Position numbers and translations under genes: made by a program
Shown: positions 2,308 to 7,142 of the stretch, piece by piece
Layout of the letters: each line of letters opens with the position of its first letter
How positions within the stretch are numbered: the stretch's first letter is position 1
Notes under the pieces: generated by a model
Seen by the model: the letters and a program-made list of their open reading frames with translations, nothing else
Database searches by the model: none
Told to the model about the DNA's origin: nothing
From: an archaeon
Lineage (GTDB): Archaea > Nanobdellota > Nanobdellia > Woesearchaeales > GW2011-AR4
Direction of reading: 5' to 3'
Assembly (NCBI GenBank): GCA_002688925.1
Contig: NZEC01000011.1
Coordinates: 1-32,815 of the forward strand
DNA length: 32,815 nt

Positions 2308-3354
2308 ATGGATGATATTTACAACAAAATAACAGAACTGGTAAAAAATAATATCCTGGATGTTGATGATAATTTTGTCAAGTTTTCTGATTCGGGCTAT
2401 GATGCAGTTAAATTCGATAAAAATAATTTTAGTAATATTGAAAACATAAAATCTGACAATAAAATAGCCTTTATTGATGGGGGAAGCTCGGAAATATTAA
2501 AGTCATCAAATTTCTCATTAAATCTGATAAGGATTTATTATGCAGTTTACTTCAAAAACAAGAGAATAAAATCCGGAAAGAATGACTTCTATTCATTTAC
2601 CTGCGCAAAAAATGTCAATAATGAGATATATTTTGATACTGAGATAATAGGAATAAAAAATAATATTATCAGCAAGGAAGGTTTGTTATTGAGTTCTTTA
2701 GATGAAACTATTAAACAAGGCATAACAAGAGCAAATATCTCAAATATGGCAAATTTAGTAAGGAGATTCTCAGAGATTAAAACCGCTGCTAAAGTTGTAG
2801 AAAGCCTGGATGAGAATGACATTATTGTTTTAGACGGCTCACTACAGTGCACTTTTACAAATGAGAAAAAGTACCTGGAAGAATTATATGAAAATGCATT
2901 AAGAAATAAAGTTATTGTGTGTGGCTTAAGCAAGACAACAGCATTGATGACAGATAAAGGAAATTCAATAACTAGTGCGTTAAACAAATTCAATTTTGAT
3001 GGGAAATGGGCTTATCATCCTGTTGCAGATATAAAAAATGAAAATCATCAGGCAGATATTGCTTTTGTAAAGTTTCATGAAAAATCAAAGTATATGTTTA
3101 GGTTTGAGATATTTAGAAAGCAAAAAGAGCGCATTAAAGATGCCATAAATTTAATTTCCGGAAATTGCAAAGACCCTGTTTTTATTGGGTATCCTTATGG
3201 CCTTGTAGAAGCGGACAGGAGCGCAAGAATATCAAACAGTGAGAAGGAAATGATGCTGACATTTTTTAGCATAAAATTCGGAAAAGAGTGGGAAAAAATA
3301 AAAGATTCGTTAAGCAGTGTTGATGCCCATGAGATTTTAGATAGTATTGGGTAA
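2308..3354 (+). CDS. nurA: NurA-domain nuclease
   Basis: A 348-residue protein of the archaeal NurA family, a 5'-3' nuclease that normally works with the HerA hexameric translocase, Mre11 and Rad50 in resecting double-strand breaks. Visible landmarks are FIDGG near residue 55 and IVLDGSL near 173 (acidic metal-binding residues of the RNase H-like fold), and the C-terminal IGYPYGLVEADRSARIS and DAHEILDS motifs typical of the family. Family members are usually next to herA, but no HerA gene is visible in this window. It converges on the NAD-kinase-like gene with only 5 nt between the stops. The start at ATG 2308 is supported by a TATA box at leaderless distance. Confidence 0.87.
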   Translation: MDDIYNKITELVKNNILDVDDNFVKFSDSGYDAVKFDKNNFSNIENIKSDNKIAFIDGGSSEILKSSNFSLNLIRIYYAVYFKNKRIKSGKNDFYSFTCAKNVNNEIYFDTEIIGIKNNIISKEGLLLSSLDETIKQGITRANISNMANLVRRFSEIKTAAKVVESLDENDIIVLDGSLQCTFTNEKKYLEELYENALRNKVIVCGLSKTTALMTDKGNSITSALNKFNFDGKWAYHPVADIKNENHQADIAFVKFHEKSKYMFRFEIFRKQKERIKDAINLISGNCKDPVFIGYPYGLVEADRSARISNSEKEMMLTFFSIKFGKEWEKIKDSLSSVDAHEILDSIG

Positions 3355-3359
3355 AAAAA

Positions 3360-4373
3360 TCAAACCCCATAAACACTCTGCCTTGCGTCATTAAGATAAG
3401 CCTGCCTTGTTATCAGCCTTTTTCCCAATAAGAGCTCTAATGCATGCCTTACAGTTCTCTCAGGCAAATAAGTCATGTTAATTATTTCTTTCTGCGTCAG
3501 ATTTCCCTCATAAGAAAGAATCTTGTAGACTAATTTTGCGCTCGGAGGCAGATTCATTGTCTTTTCCTCGCTTAAGGAAACCGTTCTTTTCTTGAGCTTG
3601 TTCTCAATTGCATAATCCCTTGAAAACTCTATAAACTGGGCATCATATTTTGATTTTTCTATCTTCACGCTATCACTCTTCAAATTTATCCTTACATCCC
3701 CATCCATGATTACAATTGGAGAAATAGCATCTATATCAGTAATGTTAATTTTTGATTTATTTGAAACAATGGCAGTAGTCTTTTTTTCAATTGAAGATAT
3801 TGGGGTTATGGATAATATCTCTGGCTCATCCAGGATTATCGGACCATAGGCAGAAAAGCTGTAGCCTGTGCTGCCTGTAGGCGTTGCAACTATAAGGCCA
3901 TCTGCATTGTCTTTCCATAATTTTTCATTATTGAGATTTAATGAATATCTTATCAAAGAAGCGCTTTTTGAAGAAAAAATACCTATGTCATTTAATGCAG
4001 CATACTTGCTATTGTCATTAAACTTTGCAACTATCCTTGACCTTTTAAAAATCTTAAATTTATCTTTTTCTATCAAATCTATATATCCCAAAAGATTTGC
4101 AGCATCTGACTGTGCAAGAAAGCTCTGCATTGAGCCTACTCCCAATAAGGGAATCTGCCTTTTTCCAAGATCCCTGAAAGTTTTCAATATTAAATTATCA
4201 TCCCCAAAAGCCAAAATCGCATCTGGAGTTATTTCATCAATATTCTTTTTATTCCCTATAATTTTTAAATTTTTATCAACAGCATAATCGGCATTTATCT
4301 TCCTGAGGTAAGATACTGCACGTTTTGCAAGCTCCAGGGAATTTTTATCTAATTTGCTTGTTACAAAATACAT
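3360..4373 (-). CDS. NAD-kinase-like protein fused to a C-terminal winged helix
   Basis: A 337-residue protein. Residues about 1-260 match the ATP-NAD kinase fold, with DGLIVATPTGSTGYS (about 158-172) and the MDGD segment of the NAD-binding domain. The usual GGDG motif is altered to FGDDN (56-60), keeping the catalytic-position Asp, and the usual NE dipeptide is ND (LNDIGIF). Residues about 275-337 form an added winged-helix domain (LTQKEIINMTYLPERTVRHAL is the likely HTH). NAD kinases phosphorylate NAD to NADP. The added DNA-binding domain, and the divergent placement against nadA-nadC-nadX, suggest (inference) an NAD(P)-sensing regulator, a bifunctional enzyme-regulator, or both. ATG 4373 is preceded by a TATA box at leaderless spacing. 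Confidence 0.8.
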   Translation of the reverse strand: MYFVTSKLDKNSLELAKRAVSYLRKINADYAVDKNLKIIGNKKNIDEITPDAILAFGDDNLILKTFRDLGKRQIPLLGVGSMQSFLAQSDAANLLGYIDLIEKDKFKIFKRSRIVAKFNDNSKYAALNDIGIFSSKSASLIRYSLNLNNEKLWKDNADGLIVATPTGSTGYSFSAYGPIILDEPEILSITPISSIEKKTTAIVSNKSKINITDIDAISPIVIMDGDVRINLKSDSVKIEKSKYDAQFIEFSRDYAIENKLKKRTVSLSEEKTMNLPPSAKLVYKILSYEGNLTQKEIINMTYLPERTVRHALELLLGKRLITRQAYLNDARQSVYGV

Positions 4374-4393: not shown

Positions 4394-4405
4394 TATTTAA
4401 ATAAT
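4394..4405. promoter_or_regulatory. TATA box between the divergent NAD genes
   Basis: TTATTTAAATAA is itself palindromic. On the minus strand it lies 26 bases from the ATG of the NAD-kinase-like gene, fitting a leaderless start. It could also initiate plus-strand transcription, though nadA has a closer candidate (TTTTAAAAATA at 4475-4485) placed for a leaderless start at ATG 4503. Confidence 0.5.
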
Positions 4406-4416
4406 TTGCTATTTAT

Positions 4417-4431
4417 AGGCAAATATTGCCT
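4417..4431. promoter_or_regulatory. candidate operator palindrome in the NAD promoter region
   Basis: AGGCAA-ATA-TTGCCT is a perfect 6-bp inverted repeat with a 3-bp centre, placed between the divergent NAD-kinase/HTH gene and nadA. A third TTGCCT half-site is at 4456-4461. The geometry suits a dimeric HTH regulator, and the adjacent winged-helix fusion is an obvious candidate. Binding is inference. Confidence 0.45.
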
Positions 4432-4502
4432 CTTTTTTTACAAAACCAGTTAAAATTGCCTGATTGCATAACTATTTTAAAAATACCTTGTCATTGGTAG
4501 GA

Positions 4503-5438
4503 ATGCAGCTTCAACAAACCATATTAGAGGAGAAAAATCCGGATGAAAAGCTAATACAGCTAATTCTAGAGCTGAAAAAACAATTAAACGCAGTTATTCT
4601 GGTGCATAACTACCAACGGCCGGAGATGTACAAAATTGCCGACTTTATAGGCGATTCTTTAGGCCTCTCCGAGGAAGCAGCTAAAACAGATGCTGATATC
4701 ATCTTATTCTGCGGCGTGAAATTCATGGCAGAAACAGCAAAAATTCTAAGCCCGAAAAAAACAGTTTTATTGCCCAGTTTAGATGCAGGATGCGCTCTTG
4801 CTGATATGGCAACCCTTGAGCAGCTAAAAAAAGTAAAAGAAAAACATCCGGATGCTGCAGTTGTAAGCTATGTGAACGCAAATGCAGACATAAAGGCTGA
4901 ATCTGATGTCTGCTGCACTTCCATGAACGCTGTTAAAATTGTCAATTCCCTTCCAAACAAGGAAATAATTTTTTTGCCTGACAAAAATCTTGGAAGGTAT
5001 GTCGCTTCAAAAACAGACAAAAAAATAATTTTGTGGGATGGCTATTGTTTTGTGCATGACAAGCTTAATGCTGAAATGCTTGATGACTTGAAAAAAGATA
5101 TGCCCGGAGCAAAGATAATTGCGCATCCAGAATGCAAAACTGATATCCTACAGGAAGCAGACCATATTAGCGGCACAGGCGGCATGGCAAAATTTGCAAA
5201 TTCAAGCAATGCAAAGGATTTCATTGTTGTCACAGAATGCGGCATGACAGAAAAATTAAAGGAAGATGTTCCGGATAAAAATTTTTACTCGTTCTGCAAC
5301 ATCTGCCCTTACATGAAATACACAACCCTGCCTTTAGTCGTAAGCTCATTGACCCAAAAGCAGCATGAAATAACTCTTCCTGAAGAAACAATAAAAAAGG
5401 CAAGGAAGGCTTTAGATAAGATGCTTGAATATAGCTAA
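4503..5438 (+). CDS. nadA: quinolinate synthase NadA
   Basis: A protein of about 311 residues that condenses iminoaspartate with dihydroxyacetone phosphate to form quinolinate, using a [4Fe-4S] cluster. The family is recognised by VHNYQRPE near the N-terminus, IGDSLGLS, FCGVKFMAETAKIL, and three cluster cysteines in AGCALAD, VTECGM and CNICPYMK. The start is taken at ATG 4503, because NadA proteins begin near this point and a TATA-like element is at leaderless spacing; an in-frame TTG at 4464 would add 13 unsupported residues. nadC follows with a single base between stop and ATG, so the genes are co-transcribed. The enzyme is cytosolic and oxygen-sensitive in the family. Confidence 0.95.
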   Translation: MQLQQTILEEKNPDEKLIQLILELKKQLNAVILVHNYQRPEMYKIADFIGDSLGLSEEAAKTDADIILFCGVKFMAETAKILSPKKTVLLPSLDAGCALADMATLEQLKKVKEKHPDAAVVSYVNANADIKAESDVCCTSMNAVKIVNSLPNKEIIFLPDKNLGRYVASKTDKKIILWDGYCFVHDKLNAEMLDDLKKDMPGAKIIAHPECKTDILQEADHISGTGGMAKFANSSNAKDFIVVTECGMTEKLKEDVPDKNFYSFCNICPYMKYTTLPLVVSSLTQKQHEITLPEETIKKARKALDKMLEYS

Positions 5439-5439
5439 G

Positions 5440-6354
5440 ATGAAAAATGGTATTATTTATGAATTCTGGGGTAGAAGCAAACTTTTAAACTTGGGAAATA
5501 AGCGATATTCTGATTATGTCAAAAATTTTTTTGAGGATAAATTAAAAAATGATATGATCAATAAAGACATTACAACAAAAATTCTTATAAAAAATAATAG
5601 TGCAAGAGCAAGTATTGTAGCAAAAGAAGATGGAATTCTCTCCGGCATGGAAGAATGTTCTATTTTATTCAAAGGACTTAAGGTTAAAAATAAAAAAAAG
5701 GATGGAGAAAAAATAAAGAAAGGCCAGGTAATAACAGAATTAAGCGGAAATATAAACAAGTTCCTTGGAGTTGAAAGAACAATTCTTAATGTTTTGCAGA
5801 GAATGAGCGGCATCGCAACAATAATCTATAATCTGAATAAAAAAATAAAAAATAACTGTAAAATAGCAGCAACAAGAAAAACTTTATGGGGTTTATTGGA
5901 TAAAAAAGCAGTTTCTATAGGAAAAGGCCTTACTCACCGGTTGAACCTTTCAGACGGAATATTAATCAAAGATAATCATATAAAAGCATTGAATAATGAT
6001 ATTAAAACAGCTTTAATTCTTGCAGATAATAATAAAAAAACAAAGTTTGTTGAAATAGAAGTAGCTAATAAAAGACAGGCATTGAAAGCAGCATTAACGA
6101 TAAGCTCATTAAAGAATAAAAAATCAAAAAAAATATTTGCAATAATGCTCGATAATATGAGCCCAAAAGAAATAAAAAAAACAATTGATGAGATAAAGAG
6201 CAAAAAACTGCAGAATAATGTATTGTTTGAAGCATCCGGGAACATTAATGAAAAAAACATAGCAGAATATTCAAAAACAGGGATTGATATAATCTCATTG
6301 GGATTTATAACCCACTCTGCAAAAGCTTTGGATATAGCATTAGAAATAAAATGA
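5440..6354 (+). CDS. nadC: nicotinate-nucleotide pyrophosphorylase (carboxylating) NadC
   Basis: A 304-residue quinolinate phosphoribosyltransferase that joins quinolinate with PRPP to give nicotinate mononucleotide, CO2 and pyrophosphate. Family signatures in order are ERTILNVLQRMSGIAT, AATRKT, the LTHRLNLSDGILIKDNH stretch, FVEIEV, MLDNMSP, FEASGNI and the C-terminal ISLGFITHS. Basic residues for binding quinolinate and PRPP are kept in ATRKT and HR. The protein is Lys- and Asn-rich, like its neighbours. ATG 5440 lies one base after the nadA stop; an upstream in-frame TTG at 5425 would overlap nadA. The last four bases (ATGA) are shared with the nadX start, showing translational coupling. 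Confidence 0.95.
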   Translation: MKNGIIYEFWGRSKLLNLGNKRYSDYVKNFFEDKLKNDMINKDITTKILIKNNSARASIVAKEDGILSGMEECSILFKGLKVKNKKKDGEKIKKGQVITELSGNINKFLGVERTILNVLQRMSGIATIIYNLNKKIKNNCKIAATRKTLWGLLDKKAVSIGKGLTHRLNLSDGILIKDNHIKALNNDIKTALILADNNKKTKFVEIEVANKRQALKAALTISSLKNKKSKKIFAIMLDNMSPKEIKKTIDEIKSKKLQNNVLFEASGNINEKNIAEYSKTGIDIISLGFITHSAKALDIALEIK

Positions 6355-7142
6355 TAACAGGTATTATTGGCTGCGGAAATATTGGAACAGAGCTCGCATT
6401 ATTCATGGATAAAAGAAAGGATTTTGAATTGAAATATTTGTTTGATATTGATAAAGATAATTCAGATAATTTAACTAAAAAATTAAAAAACAGCAATCCA
6501 AAATTTGCATCATTTGATTCACTGATAAAAAATTCTGAATTGACAATTGAGTCAGCAGACAAAGAAGCAGTTAAAAAAATACTGAAAAACAAGGATCTAG
6601 ATAAAAAAAACAAAAAACTGCTTGTAATGAGCACTTCCGGATTGTTTGAAAATATTTCTTCACTAAAAAAAACAAAAAACTGCGATATTTACCTTCCTTC
6701 CGGTGCAATTGCGGGCTTGGATGCAATAAAATCAGTATCTGGAAAAATAAGCTCATTGACTTTAACAACAACAAAAAATCCAAAAGGGATTGCAAACGCT
6801 CCATTTATATTAAAAAATAACATTAATCTTAAAAAAATAAAAAACAAAAAAATAATTTTTCAAGGCAAACTAAAAGAAGCAGTTGTTGGCTTTCCAAAAA
6901 ACATCAATGTCGCAGCAACATTATTCCTGGCATCGAAATTCAATAATATAAAAATTAAAATAATTGCCGACCCAAAAACAAAAACAAACATCCATGAGAT
7001 AGTATGCAAAGGGAATTTTGGAAACTTAACTTTAATTGCTGAAAACCTGCCAAGCAAAAACCCAAAAACAAGCTATCTAGCGATATTGAGCGCAATTCAG
7101 GTATTGAAGAATATAAACAATAAGGTAAAAATTGGGTCATAA
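6351..7142 (+). CDS. nadX: L-aspartate dehydrogenase NadX
   Basis: A 263-residue NAD(P)-dependent aspartate dehydrogenase that oxidises L-aspartate to iminoaspartate, the first step of NAD synthesis in organisms lacking the FAD oxidase NadB. An N-terminal Rossmann motif GIIGCGNIG is followed by LPSGAIAGLDAIK, TTKNPKG, FPKNINVAATL, the catalytic-region HEI and the C-terminal NPKTSYLAILSAI, all typical of the family. Using a dehydrogenase rather than an oxidase fits an anaerobic lifestyle. The gene overlaps nadC by 4 nt and ends the operon; a T-rich tract follows at 7144-7153. With NadA and NadC it completes aspartate to nicotinate mononucleotide. Confidence 0.92.
   Translation: MITGIIGCGNIGTELALFMDKRKDFELKYLFDIDKDNSDNLTKKLKNSNPKFASFDSLIKNSELTIESADKEAVKKILKNKDLDKKNKKLLVMSTSGLFENISSLKKTKNCDIYLPSGAIAGLDAIKSVSGKISSLTLTTTKNPKGIANAPFILKNNINLKKIKNKKIIFQGKLKEAVVGFPKNINVAATLFLASKFNNIKIKIIADPKTKTNIHEIVCKGNFGNLTLIAENLPSKNPKTSYLAILSAIQVLKNINNKVKIGS

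Follow-up and report, generated by a model that had tools for sequence, protein, structure and literature searches.

The 32,815-nucleotide stretch of archaeal DNA analysed here (the window) carries a gene whose product joins an NAD kinase (NADK) fold to a C-terminal winged helix. The sequence-only reading had this gene diverging from nadA-nadC-nadX across a palindrome, an arrangement that was confirmed; the features of the locus are collected in Table 1. For nadA, the ATG at 4503 was preferred to the listed TTG at 4464 as the probable start, on the basis of promoter spacing. A gene for a NurA-domain protein (2308–3354) is convergent with the fusion gene and lies close by in most family members.

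Table 1. Features of the fusion gene–nadA locus, in window coordinates
Feature	Position	Strand	Basis
NADK-fold and winged-helix fusion gene, putative regulator	3360..4373	(-)	337-amino acid ORF with ATG start; Pfam NAD_kinase_C; PDB NADK matches (sequence and AlphaFold2-model fold)
C-terminal winged-helix domain, about residues 272–337	3363..3560	(-)	identity to haloarchaeal HTH proteins; modelled helices
Probable TATA box of fusion gene, about 26 bp before ATG	4394..4405	(-)	inspection of the sequence
Putative operator palindrome GGCAA-N3-TTGCC, GGCAAATATTGCC	4418..4430	(.)	identical in 21/21 family members
Third half-site TTGCC, 12 bp before nadA TATA box	4456..4460	(+)	all 22 upstream regions
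Probable TATA box of nadA, TATTTTAAAA	4473..4482	(+)	ATG 30 bp further on
nadA, quinolinate synthase	4503..5438	(+)	Pfam NadA, E 2.8e-120
nadC, nicotinate-nucleotide diphosphorylase	5425..6354	(+)	NCBIfam TIGR00078, over cut-off
nadX, aspartate dehydrogenase	6351..7142	(+)	Pfam Asp_DH_C, E 1e-26; NCBIfam aspartate dehydrogenase, below equivalog cut-off

Residues 1–250 of the window protein match NAD kinases by Pfam, by sequence against the PDB and by the fold of an AlphaFold2 model, with residues 127–249 corresponding to NAD_kinase_C (Pfam, E 2.9e-21). Input to the model was the window protein together with two of its fusion relatives and a set of ordinary NADKs, and the resulting model of the window protein had a pLDDT of 84.1 and a pTM of 0.71. 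The last ~65 residues show 50–59% identity to haloarchaeal winged-helix/MarR-type helix–turn–helix (HTH) proteins; the likeness is to the C-terminal domain, and the matched stretch in those proteins stands without an NADK domain, unlike in the window protein. Three helices were modelled in this part (277–289, 294–301 and 305–316), the wing region is ill-defined and of low model confidence, and HTH matches of the protein stay below the Pfam cut-off. Taken together, identity and model point to a winged helix of a putative DNA-binding transcription regulator, and the domain pair proposed from the sequence alone, an NADK fold with a C-terminal winged helix, was upheld.

In all, 38 such fusions were found, in one archaeal phylum and falling into two groups (other phyla were covered by a peptide-pattern scan only). 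The first comprises 21 of the 36 genomes of the window's family, with one further fusion in a genome of another family (G057); the second comprises 16 genomes from two other families of the class. Fusion contigs include JADFJW010000021.1 (Nanoarchaeota archaeon) and JADHVG010000005.1 (Candidatus Woesearchaeota archaeon). In a phylogeny restricted to NADK domains, in which some long branches were flagged, the fusion domains formed one clade with support of 97/94. An apparent bacterial fusion (L176, Bacillota) was rejected as an ordinary NADK with a spurious long match. Broken or truncated fusion genes, which may reflect decay or assembly error, were seen in G004 (L036:9219-10182, with a frame change around residue 268–283), G013 (L052:10475-11020) and G473 (L206:5885-6559).

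Within the window's family, the fusion gene lies divergently beside nadA in 17 of 21 cases, and the co-occurrence of fusion and NadA (17/4/3/12) gave a Fisher P of 5e-4, relatedness being ignored. In the second group, the fusion adjoins NAD salvage genes in 16/16 genomes, the first eight of which were found blind to their neighbours and the other eight drawn after the pattern had been seen. These neighbours are pncB (nicotinate phosphoribosyltransferase), pncA (nicotinamidase-like isochorismatase), nadE (NAD synthase) and NADK, to which some loci add NMN adenylyltransferase or PRPP synthase. The fusions are thus tied to two non-homologous NAD routes, de novo and salvage. Fusions scattered away from nad genes had been named beforehand as an outcome that would count against a role in NAD synthesis; when this was checked, 33 of the 38 were found to adjoin NAD genes, and the operator was kept in four of the five others.

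Compared with NAD kinases (PpnK/NADK, e.g. Archaeoglobus fulgidus 1suw/1z0s), the window protein shares sequence and fold over residues 1–250 as well as the NAD-site motifs, but it lacks GGDG, has the added winged helix and comes from a genome that encodes an active-type NADK elsewhere. By alignment, G57-D58-D59-N60-L61 occupies the site of NADK G-G-D-G-T. The GGDG motif is described in PMC5890153 as key to ATP binding, with contacts to the phosphate of ATP and to the NADP 2'-phosphate. The alteration noted from the sequence alone (GDDN in the window protein) extends to the fusions generally: none of the 36 readable copies has GGDG intact (the copies of G387 and G549 are cut short). The position reads GDDx, GDNK or GNDR in the window's family and GDSF, GNSF, GSSF, GSSS or GGTD in the second group, with the catalytic-position D changed to N or S/T in several fusions. 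TPTGSTGY, also reported as kept, is present at residues 164–171, and N-E/D and TPTGST-type NAD-site motifs are retained across the fusions, the second group showing minor variants. The dipeptide N128-D129, on the other hand, had been read as a departure from NE and proved to be normal variation: ordinary NADKs with intact GGDG often read ND in the alignment, and PMC5890153 terms the second motif NE/D, so that ND was rejected as an active-site lesion. On these motifs, the NADK domain of the fusion would be catalytically dead.

The same evidence bears on whether the fusion might still be an NAD kinase that also regulates, in the manner of NadR, which joins enzyme and repressor domains. Such a dual role would fit the retained NAD-site motifs and the retention of D59 in most fusions of the window's family, but we consider it improbable given the loss of the ATP-binding motif from every readable copy, the replacement of its Asp in the second group and in three members of the window's family, and the presence of a separate GGDG NADK, which is encoded with NE in the window's own genome and is also carried by the second-group clusters. 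Enterobacterial NadR (repressor/NMN adenylyltransferase/NR kinase), for which NAD is the ligand according to PMC6800001, resembles the fusion in joining DNA binding to NAD-pathway enzyme domains; it differs in its enzyme folds, none of them NADK, and in an N-terminal repressor domain as against the C-terminal winged helix here. The ordinary NADK of the window's family (L002:1000-1905) has an unusual TASGSYAW/TPSGSxAW replacing TPTGSTAY.

The palindrome GGCAA-N3-TTGCC has one match in the window against 0.08 expected. It lies 46–48 bp from the fusion ATG and is unchanged in every fusion-bearing member of the family; the G057 copy departs from it at a single position. Information content is 2.00 bits in the arms, compared with a mean of 0.67 for the other columns. 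In all 22 upstream regions (21 family members and G057), a third TTGCC follows at an offset of 38 or 39 bp. In the window, palindrome and half-site each end 12 bp from the TATA box that they face, and the distance from the nadA TATA box to its ATG suggests leaderless transcripts at the locus. Binding sites on the upstream side of an archaeal TATA box often serve activation, whereas NrtR represses, and for that reason no choice was made between repressor and activator. In a few genomes a second copy of the palindrome lies inside nadA; it seems to be a coincidence of codons and was set aside, as was a wider regulon built on further palindromes, since the other sites lie within ORFs or are isolated.

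It could be argued that the C-terminal domain makes protein contacts rather than binding DNA, and that the palindrome belongs to another factor. The weak Pfam support for the domain leaves some room for this, but its close similarity to haloarchaeal HTH proteins makes it very improbable, as does the observation that, among the relatives searched, a palindrome in the vicinity of nadA is accompanied by the fusion gene: no such palindrome was found near nadA in G002 and G021, where nadA is present but the fusion is missing, and the contig of G032 begins immediately ahead of the palindrome position.

Four genomes (G001, G003, G004 and G011) have lost nadA and retain the fusion with the full operator arrangement and the nadA-type promoter, now before a small ORF (L033:9268-9723, L034:2242-2814, L035:14427-14942 and L036:10313-10831). 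Its product, of an unknown family unrelated to nadA and ending ...ELWEKxGFYQ...VQLWPEHxxYDHFKxxRAFLFC, was found in these four genomes and in no other relative searched, and NAPRTase as a replacement route was not found in the nadA-less genomes. The retention of the fusion in these genomes implies that it sometimes has targets other than nad genes. In G057 (L037:1942-3613), the operator faces a 91-amino acid membrane ORF and a sodium:solute symporter (PF00474), possibly a vitamin uptake gene. These loci, with the symporter or the small ORF at the nadA position, and the other genomic palindrome copies within ORFs or standing alone, could mean that the regulator governs nothing beyond its own gene or a neighbouring function and that its adjacency to nad genes is inherited linkage. 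We think this unlikely, because the adjacency involves two different NAD routes, holds throughout the second group and is accompanied by a half-site that keeps a constant distance from the nadA TATA box.

The reading that we favour is of an NADK-derived sensor that has lost catalysis, binds the operator and controls NAD synthesis together with its own gene. With two NAD routes nearby, GGDG lost, the NAD-site motifs kept and an operator conserved base for base, we regard this as likely on sequence grounds; of the earlier proposal, a kinase-derived sensor or a bifunctional kinase-regulator, the same four points support the first half and count against the second. In such a scheme, the NADK domain would still bind a pyridine nucleotide, most likely NAD, and ligand binding would alter the dimer or tetramer and thereby the placing of two winged helices, which would contact two elements between the divergent promoters, the palindrome and the half-site close to it. 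Occupancy of the operator would adjust transcription of nadA-nadC-nadX and of the regulator gene itself, and NAD supply would thereby follow the NAD level.

A close parallel in logic is bacterial NrtR, in which, as described in PMC6800001, an enzyme-derived sensor, often without enzyme activity, is joined to an HTH domain, and whose mycobacterial gene adjoins nadABC, a palindrome separating the two. The fusion shares the enzyme-derived sensor, the HTH domain, the adjacent nad genes and the (here putative) palindromic operator, and may work like NrtR. By fold it falls outside that family: NrtR is bacterial and has a Nudix fold, ADP-ribose as ligand and a different site, whereas the fusion is archaeal and has an NADK fold in place of a Nudix-like sensor.

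The fusion is probably a previously undescribed NAD-sensing switch of NAD supply; no description of NADK-HTH fusions was found in the open-licence literature (subscription journals and preprints lay outside the search). It is also likely that it represents a hitherto unrecognised family of transcription factors responsive to NAD, which would be the first derived from NAD kinase and possibly the first regulator of archaeal NAD synthesis to be described, wired to de novo synthesis or to salvage by lineage. If so, an NADK-derived member would be added to the few known regulators of NAD synthesis, the path of NrtR from enzyme to sensor would have been repeated from another enzyme, and small-genome archaea, in which regulation is almost unknown, would gain a regulator with an operator and targets that can be put to the test. 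The genomes that keep the operator without nadA would point to unknown genes that may have a role in NAD supply.

In the second group, the same protein family would be wired to salvage genes instead. The palindrome is not conserved there and gave weak candidates only, which were rejected: the best sites have 2–3 mismatches, with shuffle P values of 0.01–0.22 depending on the locus, at the thresholds shown. In the pncB-pncA intergenic region of this group (L202–L207), a conserved inverted GGGAAA...TTTCC pair was spotted by eye and is a candidate operator.
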